Shown here piece by piece: positions 23,637 through 33,478 of a stretch of DNA of 64,000 bases. Made by a program: the position numbers and the translations under genes. Under the pieces are notes generated by a model. That model made no database searches. It was given only the letters and a program-made list of their open reading frames with translations, and was not told where the DNA came from. The stretch spans positions 1 to 64,000 of the forward strand of contig DASVOS010000007.1 of the NCBI GenBank assembly GCA_036383255.1, read 5' to 3'. The DNA comes from Gammaproteobacteria bacterium. GTDB taxonomy: Bacteria; Pseudomonadota; Gammaproteobacteria; Natronospirales; REEB76. Numbering within the stretch: position 1 is the first letter of the stretch; each line of letters starts with the position of its first letter.

Positions 23637-25805
23637 TTATCCGAGGCCTATTGCTTCCCTTACCTTAGCCTGTTCATAAGAGCTCAAACCTAATGAACCT
23701 AAATCGGCATTTCTTAGAATTCTTATCAACTCGCTCCATGAGTTGGGTGTTGGCAACCTGTCCTGCAATTTTTGGGCTGCTGATGCAGGAATATCATATT
23801 CAAGCAATACAGCAAAAATTCCATTAGCAAAAGAATTCTCGATTGCAGTCGCAAAATATTCGTAGTTCCCTCCAGTTTGATTATGCTGTTTATAAACATA
23901 AGCTTGAATTTGCGAAATTGTAACTAACCACTTAGGCAACCTAAAATCGAACCATCTCCTAGTAATCATAAGCATGCGCTGAACAGTAACCTGTATTCTT
24001 TTCATTTCATCGGGATAGTTTTTTATACTCCACTCGCTTTCCAATTGACCTCGTATTAACCTCTTAACTGATTTTAACCTCCCATATTCTCGGGCTAGCA
24101 AAGCCAACTGCTGGGGAGAACTAACGCCATCAAAGGCATCTCGCTTCCCATAAAAATGCTTCCAACCCAACTCTAGTGCCGCGACTAACTCGTGATAACT
24201 TGGCCATCCTGTCCATGTAAGGTTTCTAAGTCTTCCAAAATTCTCGTGTAATTCGTTATAGAGCGCCACTTGCCCGGCCGCGCTGATACCAGGTGATTGG
24301 CGAATCAAATTAATTAGCCCTTCGTCCTGATTGGAGCAAAATTCTTCAATTCTTTTACCACTCGCCTCCTCAAGATCATCTTTTCTCAGCTGTAATAACA
24401 ACTCGATTGGTGCATTTTTCTGATCAAATAGCGGGACATCAATGTCAAAGTCAGTCTGCGTAGGCATTGTCTGAAACTGATATACACGCCCCACATAGTA
24501 TCGTTGCATTCTTCCAGACCGGCCGGCAATGTTTCTATAATCAAAGAAATCAATCGCCTTTTTCCCCTTCTTGTTGTCGTAAAGCACAACGTTCTTTGCA
24601 GAAGTATTAACACCTTCAATAAGTGTTGACGTACAAAATAGGACTCTTGTAAAACCCGAATTGAAAAGACTAACGATTGCACTCCCAAGGTGCCGCGGGA
24701 CATTGCCATGATGAAATGCAATACCCTTTTTTAAAGTAGGTACCAAAGCCCATTGATCATGGACGTTATCAACAATCCACTCTATGACCTGCTCAGCTTC
24801 CGCGCTTTTGAGCTTTGTGTTGTCTTCCAATTCAAAACTTCTAGCGTACTCAGCCGCCAATCGCTCAGCCTTGTCAGGGGATGAACAATAAACGAGGGTT
24901 GGCTGATCCAGTGCATCTAGCAACTCAAACAGATCTTCTTCTCTCTCTGCTTGTTTTCCTCTTAATCGGCTAGGAGCGCCAACACTACTGATATCTACAG
25001 CAACGGTAGAAAACTCAGTTTTATATAATTGCGCCGTTGTTTTAGTTCTTAAATTCCCACTTACATCACTAACAGTAGGCCCGAGCATATAGAAATTATT
25101 TGTATGACCCAGCAATTTATATAGAGCCTGATTCAAAATGATTGAACGATCATCATCGCGACTTATGGAGAGTTTATAAAATTCATCGATAATGAAGAAA
25201 TCAATCTTTGGGAAATGTTGGTATTCGACTACTCTCTCTGCCGTAAATAAGAATAAATTTTGTGCGTCACTAGGGAGCTGTCGCGTACTAACTATTAGAG
25301 CGTAGTCACTATATTTTGTTAACCTCTTCCTCGTTTCATCTAAAAGCGCGAGAGTGGGCTGCACTACCACAATATTTCTGTACTGGTCTGCCGCAATGAT
25401 TTCATCAATCAATAGGCTTTTGCCAAAACTTGTAGGTGCAGCAAGAATAACGCTCTGACCACCCAACAATTTATCAATTACTTGGCGCTGCTCTTCGTGA
25501 AGAATAATTTGGGAATTACCAAATGACCTATGCGCTTCATATAACAGAGCATCTCGCAAACTTTCACCCGACTTTTTAAGATAAGGGAATAATCCCGCAG
25601 CCGCGATAACGCTAGCCCATAGTTCCTTGGTATCAGCGGGTACCAAATGATATTTATCCAAGATCCGAATCACTATTTCACGTGCAAAATGCTGATTTGC
25701 TCCGCGCAAGTTATTTGCGCATAGCCGTGCAATTTCAAAACTTGTATCGGAATTGATTTGCGCCTCGGAGAGAAGAGTTGCCTTAGCTTGCTCTAATGTT
25801 TCCAT
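23637..25805 (-). CDS. hamB: Hachiman helicase HamB (compact)
   Basis: A 722-residue superfamily-2 helicase. Walker A APTSFGKS lies at 123-130, the DEAD-box-like IIDEFY at 205-210, LIEGVN (motif V) at 395-400 and NIAGRSGRMQR (motif VI) at 425-435. A helical N-terminal region precedes it and a roughly 280-residue C-terminal region of unknown fold follows. In Hachiman, HamB surveys DNA and holds HamA inactive until phage-type DNA structures are met. The start is the ATG in TGATG, sharing one base with the hamA stop and preceded by GGAGG nine bases upstream. Base composition is clearly poorer in G/C than the flanks, consistent with horizontal transfer. Confidence 0.85.
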   Translation of the reverse strand: METLEQAKATLLSEAQINSDTSFEIARLCANNLRGANQHFAREIVIRILDKYHLVPADTKELWASVIAAAGLFPYLKKSGESLRDALLYEAHRSFGNSQIILHEEQRQVIDKLLGGQSVILAAPTSFGKSLLIDEIIAADQYRNIVVVQPTLALLDETRKRLTKYSDYALIVSTRQLPSDAQNLFLFTAERVVEYQHFPKIDFFIIDEFYKLSISRDDDRSIILNQALYKLLGHTNNFYMLGPTVSDVSGNLRTKTTAQLYKTEFSTVAVDISSVGAPSRLRGKQAEREEDLFELLDALDQPTLVYCSSPDKAERLAAEYARSFELEDNTKLKSAEAEQVIEWIVDNVHDQWALVPTLKKGIAFHHGNVPRHLGSAIVSLFNSGFTRVLFCTSTLIEGVNTSAKNVVLYDNKKGKKAIDFFDYRNIAGRSGRMQRYYVGRVYQFQTMPTQTDFDIDVPLFDQKNAPIELLLQLRKDDLEEASGKRIEEFCSNQDEGLINLIRQSPGISAAGQVALYNELHENFGRLRNLTWTGWPSYHELVAALELGWKHFYGKRDAFDGVSSPQQLALLAREYGRLKSVKRLIRGQLESEWSIKNYPDEMKRIQVTVQRMLMITRRWFDFRLPKWLVTISQIQAYVYKQHNQTGGNYEYFATAIENSFANGIFAVLLEYDIPASAAQKLQDRLPTPNSWSELIRILRNADLGSLGLSSYEQAKVREAIGLG

Positions 25806-26653
25806 CAGAGATCCCTCCAAGCTTGGACCTTATCGTGAAGTGCAGTAACTAGTTCAGCTTTATTTTTAACTGGAAATAGAATCAAAATAACATTCAACTT
25901 TGTCTCGACTTTTTCTAATTCTTCAGAAAATTTCTTTTCTAATCTTTCTACTTCTGTATTTAAATCATTAGTAAACTTTTCGCATATATCTTCATTCCCA
26001 TCGTAAGCACTGCCACTGTATGTGCATACACAAGGCACCCAAACTTCGTTGAGTATCTTGTCAAGAACTGTGTGCTGATGAAGTAGTTCTTTCCAATGTT
26101 GGATATCAGGCGTATCTTCAGCTATCCGATCTGAGAGCAGCAAGAATTCGCTTCGTAGATAGTCCGTCTTGAAATGTTCCACTATATCCTTGGCTAGTTC
26201 AGCAACGCCTGCGGCACCATCATCGTAAAGCTTCGATTCTCCAAGCCACAACTGTCGCTTCTCGCCTTTCACAAGTACATGCACGCCGTCGAACCCATGA
26301 ACAGTTGCGTTCATTGAGTCTTTGAAATAAATCTTTGAAAGAAGAGGGACAGTCCCGACGAAATCACTTAGAAGCAGATGAAGAATTACTTCACCAAACT
26401 CACCTCTACGTTGATATTTATCGGTCTCGTATAGACGTTTCGCTGACTCTCGGACTCTGTATGTAAGATCTCGGTTCGCGACCGTTGTGACATTAGACCC
26501 AAAGACGAATTCCGGGATTACTCCAGTAATAATCTCTACCAGAGCGTCAAGACGGAATTGCTTTTGTTCGAAGCCAACGTAATAGACACGAAGCTTATCG
26601 GTGCACGAATGCTCCGTAATTACGCGGCTTGCATGAAGTATGTTATCGGCCAC
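25805..26653 (-). CDS. hamA: Hachiman nuclease HamA (DUF1837)
   Basis: A 282-residue DUF1837 protein, the effector of Hachiman antiphage defence. PD-(D/E)xK nuclease residues are visible: RRGEFGE (82-88), HGFDGVHV (119-126, Asp122) and the GESK motif (Glu139 and Lys141), spaced as in characterised HamA. The C-terminal 60 residues form a charged coiled coil (LEKKFSEELEKVETK). HamA degrades DNA broadly when released by HamB, causing abortive infection. The GTG start has a strong GGGAGGG before it. It is translationally coupled to hamB. A possible -10 box TATACT is at 26,705-26,710 on the minus strand. Confidence 0.85.
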   Translation of the reverse strand: MADNILHASRVITEHSCTDKLRVYYVGFEQKQFRLDALVEIITGVIPEFVFGSNVTTVANRDLTYRVRESAKRLYETDKYQRRGEFGEVILHLLLSDFVGTVPLLSKIYFKDSMNATVHGFDGVHVLVKGEKRQLWLGESKLYDDGAAGVAELAKDIVEHFKTDYLRSEFLLLSDRIAEDTPDIQHWKELLHQHTVLDKILNEVWVPCVCTYSGSAYDGNEDICEKFTNDLNTEVERLEKKFSEELEKVETKLNVILILFPVKNKAELVTALHDKVQAWRDL

Positions 26654-27908: not shown

Positions 27909-28574
27909 CTAGTCTCCGAGTGCCCCGAAGCGCTTGCGGGCGCGGATGGCGAGCACCAGCGCCGCCAGCGCGAGGCATTGAGCCAGCAGGAAGCCCAGCG
28001 CATCCAGGGGCCGGATTCCGGCGCCGGTGTCCGTGAACATGCGCGCCACGGTCAGGGCCGGGTTCGCGACGGCGTGGGAGGGCGTGAACCAGGTGGCGGC
28101 CACGAGGTAGGCGCCCACCGCGTAGGCCACGGCCTGGGAGCGGGTCTCCCCCACCCGGTGGATGACGATGAGCAGTCCCAGGGTCGCGACCCACTCGGAC
28201 CAGGCGAGCGTGAAGCCGGGCTGCGGGTGGGCCGAGAGCTGGAACAGCGGCAGCGCGAACAGCGAGTGAGTGAGCAGCACGCCGATGAGCGCGCCTCCGA
28301 ACTGCACGGCGAGATAGGCCGGCAGGTGCTTCCACTCCAGCTCCTTCTGGCAGCACATGAGCACGCTGACCAGCGGGTTGAAGTAGGCACCCGAGACGGG
28401 ATTGAGCGACAGGATCAGCGCCGAGATGCCGAAGCCCACGGCGAGCGAATCCGCCAGCACCACCTCGAAGCCGCCGCCGGCGAGGCGCGTGGCAGCGATG
28501 TCCGCGCCCGCGCCCACCAGGAACAGCAGCAGGGTGCCGATGAACTCGGCGATGAGTGCGTCGGAGAGGCGCAT
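27909..28574 (-). CDS. Aquaporin-family (MIP) channel
   Basis: A 221-residue six-helix membrane channel. The two half-helix signatures are visible: FNPLVS near 65-70 (a Leu variant of NPA) and ANPAL near 170-174. It is homologous to the AqpS-like protein encoded 1.4 kb away and shares its start (LIAEFIGTLLLFL against LLAEFLGTAFLLA). AqpS-type channels pass arsenite or methylarsenicals, so this may be a second metalloid or small-solute channel. It is not in the ars operon itself and a histone-like gene lies immediately upstream on the same strand. Confidence 0.85.
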   Translation of the reverse strand: MRLSDALIAEFIGTLLLFLVGAGADIAATRLAGGGFEVVLADSLAVGFGISALILSLNPVSGAYFNPLVSVLMCCQKELEWKHLPAYLAVQFGGALIGVLLTHSLFALPLFQLSAHPQPGFTLAWSEWVATLGLLIVIHRVGETRSQAVAYAVGAYLVAATWFTPSHAVANPALTVARMFTDTGAGIRPLDALGFLLAQCLALAALVLAIRARKRFGALGD

Positions 28575-28692: not shown

Positions 28693-28932
28693 TCAACCGA
28701 CGTTCACGGGCACCATGATGCCGCCGGCGCCCATGAGGGGATCCACGGGTGTGACCTGCATGGCTGCGACCATCGAGCGGGCCTTGCGGGCGCGGGCCTT
28801 CTTGCGGCCGGTCTTCTTGCCTGCCTTCCTGCGTCCGGCTTTCTTCTTGCCGGCCTTCTTCTTCCGGGCCGGGCGCTTCTTGCGGCTGGCCTTCTTCTTC
28901 CTGGAGGCGGTCTTCTTGCGTTTCTTGGCCAT
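28693..28932 (-). CDS. Very basic histone-H1-like small protein
   Basis: A 79-residue protein. Residues 1-52 are almost entirely Lys, Arg, Ala, Gly and Ser (KKKAGKKKAGRRKAGKK), like the C-terminal tail of histone H1 and bacterial AlgP or Hc-type proteins. Residues 53-79 are hydrophobic and Met/Val/Pro-rich (MVAAMQVTPVDPLMGAGG). It should bind DNA or RNA nonspecifically. GGAG lies six bases before the ATG and a hairpin terminator follows, so it is a genuine monocistronic gene. A comparable basic tail is found on the FPASDP-repeat protein near 53 kb. Confidence 0.8.
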   Translation of the reverse strand: MAKKRKKTASRKKKASRKKRPARKKKAGKKKAGRRKAGKKTGRKKARARKARSMVAAMQVTPVDPLMGAGGIMVPVNVG

Positions 28933-29129
28933 GGGCTTCTCCTGGAAAGGTGATTCTCCCGGTCACCGTATAACAGCATAGTTGCAGCCGGGTGACGGCC
29001 TCAAGCGGCGGCGCCCAGGCCTGGGGCAGCGGGGTTAAGACGAATCGGTGCGTTAAATGGGGGCTTGAGGGTCAAGACTCAGGCCATCTTCGGGATTCTG
29101 GCGCCGCTCCTGCGACCCTGGGAGCGGCG

Positions 29130-29930
29130 GTGAGAATCGGTATCGTCTCTGACCTGTACATAGACAAGCTCGGCAGCCCCCCGCTGCCGACGGAGATGCC
29201 GGACGTCATGGTGCTGGCCGGCAACATCGGCTGCGGCACCAAGGGCGTCGAATGGGCGGCCAGGACCTACACCTGCCCCGTCATCTACGTGCTGGGAAAC
29301 TACTCTTACCGCAACCATGACCTCGCCGGCTTCGACGAGGAGCTGCGCGCAACCGCCTGGGGCTCGAACCTGCACCTGCTGCAGAACGACACGATCTTCA
29401 TCCGCGGCATGCGCTTCATAGGCGCCACCCTGTGGACGGACTTCGCGCTGTTCGGCGACGCGGTGAGCGGGATGGTGGCGGCCGATAACCTCTGCGAGGA
29501 CTACAAGTACATCCGCAACAGCGAGGGAAAGCCGGTCACGCCGGCCGATACGATGGCGCTGCATCGCCAGAGCGTGGATTACCTGTGGCGCACCGCGACG
29601 GATCCGTACGACGACGGCCACACCGTGATCGTCACCCATCACGCACCCTCGTCGCGTTCCATACCGGCCGGATACCAGGACGACCGGGCAGCCGCCTGCT
29701 TCGCCTCGAACCTAGATGAGCTCGTCATCGAGGCCGACGCCATGCTATGGGTGCATGCGGGAGTCTATGGGCCGGTGGATTACATGCTCGGGAACACCCG
29801 CGTGGTGGCGAACCCACGCGGCGTCCCCATGGGAAAGGGTCTGCGGGGAGTGGAGAATTTCAGGGCCGATTACACCCTGCAGATGCACGGCAATCCGAGG
29901 GAGGGCACGGGATGGTGGTCTTCGACGTGA
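29130..29930 (+). CDS. Metallophosphoesterase-fold protein with lost metal ligands (pseudoenzyme)
   Basis: A 266-residue protein whose overall sequence follows calcineurin-like phosphoesterases (RIGIVSD start, MPDVMVLAGNIGCG, ATLWTDFALFGD, VIVTHHAPSSRSIP, VANPRGVP). The catalytic positions are changed: SDLH becomes SDLY (residues 8-11), GD becomes GN in LAGNIG, GNHE becomes GNYS, and the final GHVHD becomes AGVYG. The first Asp, the Asn of GN and the THH histidine remain. The intact frame, GTG start with GGGAG upstream and otherwise good conservation argue for a functional non-catalytic protein. It converges on the aqpS gene with 13 bases between stops. Confidence 0.82.
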   Translation: MRIGIVSDLYIDKLGSPPLPTEMPDVMVLAGNIGCGTKGVEWAARTYTCPVIYVLGNYSYRNHDLAGFDEELRATAWGSNLHLLQNDTIFIRGMRFIGATLWTDFALFGDAVSGMVAADNLCEDYKYIRNSEGKPVTPADTMALHRQSVDYLWRTATDPYDDGHTVIVTHHAPSSRSIPAGYQDDRAAACFASNLDELVIEADAMLWVHAGVYGPVDYMLGNTRVVANPRGVPMGKGLRGVENFRADYTLQMHGNPREGTGWWSST

Positions 29931-29943
29931 GAGGGACGGGCAT

Positions 29944-30606
29944 CTAGCCCGCCGTTTGCCGCCGGCCCGCGGACAAGGCTGCCCACATGACCAGCGCCGC
30001 CGCCGATTGCCCGGCGATGAACCCGGGCACATCCGCAGGCCTGATGCCGGTGAACGTATCCGTGAGGCTGCGCGCCACCGTGACGGCGGGGTTGGCGAAG
30101 GACGTGGAGGCCGTGAACCAGTAAGCCGCGGTGATCCAGCAGCCCACGGCGGCGGCCACCGCCGCGACCCCTTGTCGCGAGACGCAGTGGATGACGAGCA
30201 GCAGGCCCAGGGTGGCGATGCACTCGGACCACATGAGCGCGAGACCGGAGCGGGGCTTGCTCGCGCTCTCCAGCAGCGGCAGCGCGAACATGCCGTGGGT
30301 GACGATGACGCCCGCCACGGCACCGGTGGACTGCGCCAGCAGGTAGCCCGGCACGCGGCTCCAAGCGAGGTCGCCACGCGCCGCCATCATGAGGGTGACC
30401 AGGGGATTGAAGTGGGCGCCCGAAACGGGCGCGAAGACGAGGATCAATGCCGCCAGCCCCAAGCCGGTAGCCACGGAGTTGGCCAGCAGCGCTATGGCCG
30501 CGTTCCCGCCCGCGAGGCGCTCGCCCATGATGCCGGAGCCCACCACGACAGCCAATAGAAATGCGGTACCGAGGAACTCGGCGAGAAGCGCTTCTTTCAG
30601 TTTCAT
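29944..30606 (-). CDS. aqpS: AqpS-like aquaporin of the arsenic operon
   Basis: A 220-residue six-helix MIP channel with HFNPLVT near 65-71 and ANPAVT near 170-175. It is the last gene of the arsR-arsI-arsC-aqpS series. In Sinorhizobium and relatives AqpS replaces ArsB as the exit route for arsenite or trivalent organoarsenicals produced by the reductase, and no ArsB or Acr3 gene is present here. It is separated from arsC by a degenerate palindromic element, which could reduce its expression relative to arsC. Confidence 0.85.
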   Translation of the reverse strand: MKLKEALLAEFLGTAFLLAVVVGSGIMGERLAGGNAAIALLANSVATGLGLAALILVFAPVSGAHFNPLVTLMMAARGDLAWSRVPGYLLAQSTGAVAGVIVTHGMFALPLLESASKPRSGLALMWSECIATLGLLLVIHCVSRQGVAAVAAAVGCWITAAYWFTASTSFANPAVTVARSLTDTFTGIRPADVPGFIAGQSAAALVMWAALSAGRRQTAG

Positions 30607-31242: not shown

Positions 31243-31740
31243 TCAGGCGCAGCAGCCGGGCTTGCCGGCCTCGGAGGGCTTGCAGCAACCCGCGGTGGCG
31301 GCGGTCTCGGCCGCGCGGGCGGCCTGCTCCGGGGTGCAGCAGGCGGCGTCCGCCTCCTTCTCGTGGCCGCCGTAGACGGTGACGTCGCCGAAGGTGAAGA
31401 AGCTCTCCCAGCGGATGCCTTGGGGGTCCGCGGCCCAGTACTTGTCGGAGCGGGCATAGCAACAGGCGGTGTCGTGCTCGGCGTAGGCCACCGCTTCGGC
31501 GGCCATCAGCCGCTCGCCGATGGCTTCCAGCTCCGCCTTGTCCTCGGCCTGGATGCCGAGGTGGCTCAGGCCCGGGACCTGGCCGCGCCGGGAGATGGCG
31601 AAATTCACGCGCGGGTCTTCGAGCATCCACTTGGCGTAGTCACCCTTCTCCACCGTGGGGCCGGCGCCGAAGAGCGTGGAGTAGAAGCGGATGGACTGGG
31701 CGAGGTCAGCGACGGCGACGTGCACGTGCAGGCGTTTCAT
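31243..31740 (-). CDS. arsI: ArsI/CadI-type dioxygenase (C-As lyase)
   Basis: A 165-residue vicinal-oxygen-chelate protein. The proposed iron ligands are in place: His5 (LHVHV), His60 (GLSHLG) and Glu112 (RWESF). The Cys pair at 93-94 in TACCYARSDK is the trivalent organoarsenic-binding site of ArsI. ArsI cleaves the carbon-arsenic bond of methylarsenite and trivalent aromatic arsenicals. The C-terminal 35 residues carry three more Cys pairs (ACC, GCCK, GCCA), a likely metalloid-binding tail. Its ATG lies inside the 3' end of arsR, a 35-base overlap. Confidence 0.9.
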   Translation of the reverse strand: MKRLHVHVAVADLAQSIRFYSTLFGAGPTVEKGDYAKWMLEDPRVNFAISRRGQVPGLSHLGIQAEDKAELEAIGERLMAAEAVAYAEHDTACCYARSDKYWAADPQGIRWESFFTFGDVTVYGGHEKEADAACCTPEQAARAAETAATAGCCKPSEAGKPGCCA

Positions 31741-32086
31741 GTCTCTTCTCCTTGCGGGTCTTGGCGGGTACGGGAGCGCAGCCGCCGGCCACGCCGCAGT
31801 CGGCGCCCTGGCAGCAGTTCTCCGAGAGGTAGCCGATGAGGCCGTTCATGGCGGCGAAATCGGCGGTCTGATGCAGCGTGCGGCCCTCGCGCCGCTCCAG
31901 CACGAGGCCGGCATGGCGCAGGCCCGCGAGGTGGAAGGACAGCGTGGCGGGCGCGAGGTCCAGCCGCTCGCCTATGGTGCCCACCGGCAGGCCTTGCGGC
32001 CCCGCCTGCACCAGCAAGCGGTAGATCGCGAGGCGGCTCTCGTGGGCCAGGGCCCCGAGGGCGCGGATGGCGGTAGTTGATTCCAT
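31706..32086 (-). CDS. arsR: ArsR repressor of the arsenic operon
   Basis: A 126-residue winged-helix repressor (ALAHESRLAIYRLLVQAG; recognition helix LAPATLSFHLAGLRHAGLV). The As(III) site is C-terminal: Cys91, Cys92 and Cys97 in ENCCQGADC, as in Acidithiobacillus ferrooxidans ArsR, plus Cys103. The last 20 residues are basic (KTRKEKRHETPARARRRR) and overlap the start of arsI. There is no ribosome site before the ATG, and the promoter predicts a leaderless message. Confidence 0.92.
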   Translation of the reverse strand: MESTTAIRALGALAHESRLAIYRLLVQAGPQGLPVGTIGERLDLAPATLSFHLAGLRHAGLVLERREGRTLHQTADFAAMNGLIGYLSENCCQGADCGVAGGCAPVPAKTRKEKRHETPARARRRR

Positions 32087-32121
32087 ATTTCTAATAATAT
32101 GGAAATATAACTGGAAGTCAA
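32084..32121 (-). promoter_or_regulatory. arsR promoter and operator, leaderless layout
   Basis: On the minus strand TTGACT (32,121-32,116), a 16-base spacer and TATTAT (32,099-32,094) form a near-consensus sigma-70 promoter. Seven bases separate the -10 box from the arsR ATG, so transcription should start at or next to the ATG. The inverted repeat ATATTTC-N10-GAAATAT (32,085-32,108) covers the -10 box and start codon and is the best ArsR operator candidate. Confidence 0.8.
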
Positions 32122-32147
32122 GAGCCGGAGCTGGAAGCCGCGCTCCG

Positions 32148-32594
32148 CTAGGGGATAAGGGTCTTGGCCATGAAGCTGGAGGAGCTGGGGCAGAGGCCGG
32201 CGAACTGCTCGGTGGCGGCGATGCCGGCGGGCGCCTCGCTGCGCGGGAGCTTGCGATAGTCCAGGCCGGCGAAGAACGCTTCCGCGGTGGTGGTGAGCAG
32301 GTACAGCTCCCGCACGCCCTCCTCCCGCGCATGGTCCTCCATGGCCTGCACCAGGCGCTTGCCCAGCCCCAGGCCGCGGTGCGCCTCGTCCACCGCCACG
32401 GAGCGCAGCAGGGCCGCCTCGCCCTGCACGTCCAGGCCCGCGCAGCCGACGAGCACGGGACCCAGATGCGCCACCTTGAAGTGCTCCAGCATCCCGGGGG
32501 TGATGTCCTCGGTGGAGAGATCCGCCGCTTCCAGCAGCAGGCCCATCGTGGCCTCGTCATGGGAGCTGAACGGTGCGAGGACGATCTCTGACAT
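32148..32594 (-). CDS. arsN2: ArsN2-type GNAT acetyltransferase
   Basis: A 148-residue GNAT-fold protein with the acetyl-CoA pyrophosphate loop AHRGLGLGKRLVQAM (near 71-85), ADLSTEDITPGMLEHF at the N-terminus and the ELYLLTTTAEAFFAGLDY block typical of ArsN2 proteins linked to ars operons. Related ArsN1 acetylates phosphinothricin-like arsenicals; the ArsN2 substrate is not established. It begins three bases after the ppk2 stop, so it belongs to the lhr-ppk2 transcript but lies directly before the arsR promoter. Confidence 0.88.
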   Translation of the reverse strand: MSEIVLAPFSSHDEATMGLLLEAADLSTEDITPGMLEHFKVAHLGPVLVGCAGLDVQGEAALLRSVAVDEAHRGLGLGKRLVQAMEDHAREEGVRELYLLTTTAEAFFAGLDYRKLPRSEAPAGIAATEQFAGLCPSSSSFMAKTLIP

Positions 32595-32597
32595 GGC

Positions 32598-33478
32598 TCA
32601 AGCCCCTTTCTTCGAGAGTTGCTTGCGGGCGGCCTTGAGCTCCTTGCGCCGCCCGGCATCCAATTTAGGGTAGCTCATCTTGAGTCCCGCCAGGGTGTCC
32701 ACCGCCACCTGGGAGATGAGCAGGCGCGCGTTCTCCTTGTCGTCCGCCGGGATCACGTACCAGGGCGCGTCCTTGGTGCTGGTGGCGGCGAGGCAGTCGG
32801 CATAGGCCCGCATGTAGTCCTTCCAGTGCCCGCGCTCCTCGAGGTCATCCGGGTTGAACTTCCAGTTCTTCTGGGGATCGTCCAGGCGCGCCAGGAGGCG
32901 CTTGCGCTGCTCTTCCTTCGAGAGGTGCAGGTAGAACTTCACCACGCGGGTGCCGTCCTCGTGCAGGTGGCGCTCGAACTCGCGGATGGCGTGGTAGCGC
33001 TCCGCCCAGAAGACCTGGTCCACCTTCCTGGCCTTCACGCCTTCGCCCCGCAGCAGCTGCGGGTGCACGCGGGTGACCAGCACCTCCTCGTAGTAGGAGC
33101 GGTTGAAGATGCCGAGGTACCCGCGCTCCGGCAGGTCGCGGCTGGCGCGCCACAGGAAGTCGTGCTTGAGCTCCTCTTCGCTGGGCCGCTTGAAGCTGCG
33201 GATGTGGCAGCCCTGGGGGTTCACGCCGGACATGACGTGGCTGATGGCGCCGTCCTTGCCGGCGGCGTCCATGGCCTGGAAGATGAACAGCACCGCGTAG
33301 CGCTCCGAGGCATAGAGCAGCTGCTGCAGCTCGCTCAGGCGGCTCACGTGGGACTCGAGAATCTCGCGGTAGCGCTGGGTGGAGCCGTACACGGGCTCGA
33401 TGCGGGTGGGCCAGTCCTCGAGGTCCAGCTTCCCGCCGGGTTTGACCCTGAGACCCTTGGTCTTGATCGCCGCCACGC

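Follow-up and report, generated by a model that had tools for sequence, protein, structure and literature searches.

What becomes of a metallophosphoesterase that loses most of its metal ligands? The question is raised by a gene at positions 29130–29930 of a 64,000-nucleotide stretch of gammaproteobacterial DNA (contig DASVOS010000007.1; hereafter the window). Its product resembles a calcineurin-like metallophosphoesterase, and residues that should hold the metal ions are replaced. Such a protein could be an enzyme in decay, an enzyme with altered chemistry, or a pseudoenzyme with a binding function. A first-pass annotation of the window favored the last of these. We have compared the protein with its relatives, with a paralogue in the same genome and with solved structures, and conclude that it is likely a binding or scaffold pseudoenzyme.

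The gene and its family

The gene lies on the forward strand. Its open frame starts with GTG at 29130, encodes 266 amino acids and has a stop codon ending at 29930. From reading the sequence, GGGAG at 29120–29124, 5 nt upstream of the GTG, is the likely ribosome-binding site. Both features agree with the first-pass annotation, which had described an open frame with a good ribosome site. Codon usage in this frame matches that of most neighboring genes, and alternative frames do not match. No promoter match was found upstream of the gene. Its assignment as a putative pseudo-metallophosphoesterase gene draws on the open frame, the codon usage, full-length homology to 118 relatives and to a 54% identical paralogue, and an AlphaFold2 model.

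By its sequence the gene belongs to a widespread, uncharacterized bacterial family of calcineurin-like phosphoesterases (PF00149, about 240 aa; L017, L004 and others). The intact members are 34–45% identical to the window protein over about 230 residues, i.e. nearly full length, with the same motif spacing and predicted fold. The Pfam Metallophos profile matches 55 of 55 relatives scanned, but the window protein stays below the PF00149 cut-off, and even a threshold of E = 1 brings up no Pfam family for it. Applied to the same genome, the profile matched four other phosphoesterases and neither the window protein nor its paralogue, and we found no canonical member of this family in that genome. 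PADLOC gave no match for the gene, and a role in defense was rejected on that ground.

Loss of active-site residues

Searches of relatives, GTDB species genomes, the class and viral contigs gave 118 distinct relatives, with about 23–45% identity. Eight residues (D8, H10, D32, N57, H58, H170, H211 and H213 in the window numbering) are kept in 118 of 118. An active metallophosphoesterase requires seven of these as metal ligands (D, H, D, N, H, H, H) and H58 as the catalytic His of GNH(E/D). While the family keeps all eight, the window protein has lost five, and none of the 118 relatives carries any of these five changes.

Motif I (29148–29159) reads SDLY, in which the ligand D8 (29151–29153) is kept and the ligand H10 (29157–29159) has become Tyr. 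Motif II (29220–29225) is G-N in the context LAGN, with the bridging ligand D32 (29223–29225) replaced by Asn. Motif III (29295–29312) reads GNYSYR; the ligand N57 is kept, the catalytic H58 is Tyr, E59 is Ser and Y61 is Arg. An Arg at this last position is absent from all the intact relatives scored there. Motif IV (29634–29642) is THH within VTHHAPS, and retains the ligand H170 (29637–29639). Motif V (29754–29768) has HAGVY for HGHxH, within WVHAGVYG, where G210A accompanies the loss of two ligands (H211G and H213Y); H209 is also retained. Set against the published motif definition (PMC4436580) the protein has GNYS for GNH and AGVY for GHxH, and its motif II, GNIGC, is without Tyr. Four of the seven metal ligands have thus gone, together with the catalytic His.

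We also examined conservation along the whole protein. In 112 relatives, 25 positions show conservation of at least 98%; the window protein departs from them at eight, i.e. H10, D32, H58, E59, G210, H211, H213 and Y232, the last (Y232V) lying outside the motifs. Of ten active-site-motif positions seven are changed, vs four of 36 elsewhere that are conserved to at least 90% (Fisher p = 0.0006; here and below these p-values treat positions as independent and ignore the relatedness of the sequences). Loss has thus struck the active site more than expected by chance, as the first-pass annotation had claimed. The motifs it listed (SDLY, GN, GNYS and AGVYG) are all present, and it was correct in noting single-base transitions, since a single transition in the usual codons would give each of H10Y, D32N, H58Y and H213Y. 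Its observation of a fold stripped of metal ligands, with all changes at ligand positions, is real yet somewhat overstated. Four ligands are indeed lost, but D8, N57 and H170 are still present; moreover H58 is catalytic rather than a ligand, E59 and G210 are neighbors within the motifs, and Y232 is outside them.

The predicted fold

The AlphaFold2 model of the window protein (56 sequences) has pLDDT = 88.9 and pTM = 0.88, and only residues 236–244 fall below 50. The closest solved fold is that of Mycobacterium tuberculosis PptH (PDB 6unc; Z = 22.4, rmsd 3.1, 247 residues), although the sequences are only 13% identical, and many superfamily members match at Z = 14 to 18. When an intact relative is modeled its leading matches are the same, and PptH scores Z = 21.6. 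The four-layer alpha/beta calcineurin-like phosphoesterase fold is thus predicted to be complete in the window protein, in keeping with the earlier statement that the rest of the fold is preserved, but the alignment used for AlphaFold2 consisted of the intact relatives, so the result partly reflects homology and is supportive rather than independent.

With a complete predicted fold, and D8, N57, H170 and H209 in place, the protein might still be an active phosphoesterase that uses one metal ion or some other mechanism, drawing on the three remaining ligands and the new Arg and Tyr residues. We consider this very unlikely. PptH, an active enzyme with a Mn-Fe centre, is already inactivated by the single change H246N (PMC8557913). 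The window protein lacks the bridging Asp, the catalytic His and three of the ligand histidines, and two-metal catalysis is therefore probably abolished: the two-metal centre would not be held and the water would not be activated, leaving no phosphoesterase activity. Weak binding of one metal ion by the three remaining ligands is possible.

A paralogue with fewer changes

The same genome has a paralogue on another contig (C10:34508–35263, L002:1498–2256) that is 54% identical to the window protein. Its motifs read SDLY, GD, GNYS, VTHH and HGSQHD. The two copies have H10Y, H58Y, E59S and Y61R in common, as well as the retained N57, and both have lost H211 (Ser in the paralogue, whose motif V is HGSQH). 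The paralogue retains D32 and H213, so that three of its eight key residues are changed vs five of eight in the window copy. In a tree calculated without the active-site columns, the two copies form a clade with a support of 100/100 and a long stem. Because these changes are common to both copies, and these group with full support, the first losses predate the duplication. Since the paralogue retains D32 and H213, D32N and H213Y in the window copy followed it. The active site was thus already being lost when the gene duplicated, and the window copy has since lost more of it.

This changed lineage, comprising the window gene and its paralogue, is known from one genome only. We found no further members in searches of 76 relatives, of 19 genomes of the order, 369 of the class and 398 of the phylum, or of viral contigs; the strongest extra match in these searches (L131) is canonical. 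Plasmid searches, in which matches were assessed by identity, likewise added no member, with identities no higher than 38% among the matches listed. A contig scan with the window protein as sole query gave no match, its seed peptides being too specific, while a scan based on the paralogue succeeded; such seed-based scans can miss members.

The His to Tyr swaps raise the possibility of a re-built metal centre, with a different site such as Tyr-ligated Fe(III) and altered chemistry. Purple acid phosphatases belong to the same superfamily and use a Tyr from GDxxY (PMC4436580). One metal position would then be formed by Asp8/Tyr10/Asp32/His213 in the paralogue and by Asp8/Tyr10/Asn32/Tyr213 in the window copy. 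The paralogue set would correspond to that of the iron site in purple acid phosphatases, which is composed of two Asp, a Tyr and a His. In the window copy Tyr occupies both of the motif positions from which that site draws its His ligands, and both copies keep Tyr10 although its codon differs. Yet the Tyr of purple acid phosphatases comes from motif II, not motif I. In addition the catalytic His is Tyr and the first motif V His is lost in both copies, and the window copy is without the bridging Asp. Overall we regard a re-built centre as unlikely. A variant would have the motif I swap creating a Tyr-ligated centre independently of the GDxxY route, with the Asp/Tyr/Asp/His set of the paralogue, after which the site in the window copy would have turned into a binding site with two Tyr and a new role; this too we think improbable. 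A re-built Tyr-containing metal site would be most plausible in the paralogue, judging from its residues. In that copy D8/Y10/D32/H213 resemble the iron ligands of purple acid phosphatases, which makes it the stronger candidate of the two for a Tyr-ligated site.

Selection vs decay

A duplicated and dispensable gene heading for loss, in which the active site was hit first by chance, could also lack catalytic residues. The window copy carries more changes than its paralogue, several of these are single C:G to T:A transitions, and the lineage is seen in one genome only, all of which would fit decay. We have compared substitution in the two copies. Synonymous sites have reached saturation, with a dN of about 0.31. 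In the pairwise maximum-likelihood analysis dS is unbounded, and thus only the rejection of ω = 1 is used; this is strong (2ΔlnL = 108, p = 3 × 10⁻²⁵), but the test spans the whole time since the duplication, not the present, and compares two copies from one genome. The NG86 method gives dN/dS = 0.53, where dS is probably underestimated at this codon bias.

The changes found only in the window copy were counted at family-conserved positions where the paralogue has the consensus residue. None of the 31 conserved positions outside the active site is affected, but three of the six within its motifs are (Fisher p = 0.0026), as are 22 of 43 variable positions. The codons for Tyr10 (TAC and TAT) and for Ser59 (TCT and TCC) differ between the copies. 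Since these differences are synonymous and the residues are the same, Tyr10 and Ser59 have been held as the codons drifted.

Decay accounts poorly for these observations. Although the proteins have diverged by about 46% and synonymous sites are saturated, neither frame is interrupted and constraint is strong; the window-only changes spare the conserved fold positions, unlike the active site; the shared changes are older than the duplication; and the codon usage of the window gene is normal. We therefore think decay quite unlikely. By sequence, catalytic residues have been lost from a fold that appears to be under purifying selection, as in a pseudoenzyme, and the two genes probably represent a maintained pseudoenzyme lineage.

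Genomic context

The first-pass annotation had suggested a link with the neighboring aquaporin and ars genes, and we have considered a role in arsenic detoxification. The window gene does have an aquaporin gene on either side, with arsC, a glyoxalase-family gene and arsR close by, but it is on the opposite strand. The order arsR–glyoxalase–arsC–aquaporin is conserved in two genomes of a sister genus, without the pseudo-phosphoesterase gene; in that spot lies another frame, which from reading its sequence seems transporter-like. The paralogue is flanked by a dehydrogenase, a methyltransferase-like protein and a hybrid histidine kinase, with no ars genes adjoining. Nor did the canonical relatives have a recurring neighbor: among the immediate neighbors of about 50 relatives, no family occurred in more than two of 84 proteins. 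Conserved linkage with ars genes is thus lacking for the window gene, the suggested link is not borne out, and we give an arsenic role almost no credence.

Some further features of this region may be noted. The two aquaporin-family genes (27909–28574 and 29944–30606, reverse strand) that flank the pseudo-phosphoesterase gene are 50% identical, and only one of them has an operon position that is conserved in the sister genus. Between them, at 28693–28932 on the reverse strand, is a 79-amino-acid Lys/Ala-rich protein of the histone H1-like KKKA type, with no Pfam match. The arsR frame (31706–32659, reverse strand) has 317 amino acids with the HTH only at residues 204–254, and a lower third-position GC of 0.74; its true start is probably far downstream of the frame start. 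Further away on the reverse strand is a Hachiman defense pair (23637–26653), consisting of HamA (25805–26653) and HamB (23637–25820), both strong PADLOC matches. Their third-position GC is 0.38, vs about 0.9 in most neighboring genes, and they were therefore probably acquired.

A probable binding or scaffold protein on a phosphoesterase fold

Three results uphold the pseudoenzyme reading of the first-pass annotation: some of the losses also occur in the paralogue, purifying selection acts on the fold positions, and the predicted fold is complete. The ancestor of both copies lost the motif I His (to Tyr), the catalytic His (to Tyr) and the first motif V His. After duplication the window copy lost the bridging Asp (to Asn) and the second motif V His (to Tyr), while the remaining conserved fold was held by selection. 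The old pocket would now place Tyr10, Tyr58, Ser59, Arg61 and Tyr213 beside Asp8, Asn57 and His170. By analogy with known pseudo-phosphoesterases, it most likely binds a ligand or a protein partner. We found no ligand, partner or conserved neighbor for the window protein. An anionic or phosphate-bearing ligand, held by Arg61 and the Tyr hydroxyl groups without metal, is one possibility, offered as a suggestion only.

Related changes occur elsewhere in the superfamily. Rat MPPED2 (3rl3) is among the fold matches of the window model. In place of a ligand His it naturally has Gly252, and it has been proposed to act as a scaffold or adaptor. This parallels H211G in the window protein, although in MPPED2 it is a single ligand change with the other ligands intact. 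VPS29 of the retromer has a phosphoesterase fold in which the bridging Asp is Asn, and is a metal-independent scaffold (PMC3101248). It shares this substitution with the window protein, but is eukaryotic and of an unrelated subfamily. The B subunits of eukaryotic DNA polymerases have a calcineurin-like fold that has lost all catalytic residues, and became scaffolds (PMC4996933); that of polymerase epsilon (5vbn) is among the Foldseek matches of the model. Unlike the window protein, these are distant in sequence, with their own OB domain and a polymerase partner. A literature search for a metallophosphoesterase pseudoenzyme found none, which is weak evidence.

The pseudo-phosphoesterases compared here (VPS29 and the polymerase B subunits) are eukaryotic, whereas the present lineage is bacterial. 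Such proteins are missed by profile libraries, in that the Pfam phosphoesterase profile finds neither copy while their relatives match clearly. With two copies at two stages of loss in one bacterium, the order of the steps from enzyme to pseudoenzyme would be testable by biochemistry.
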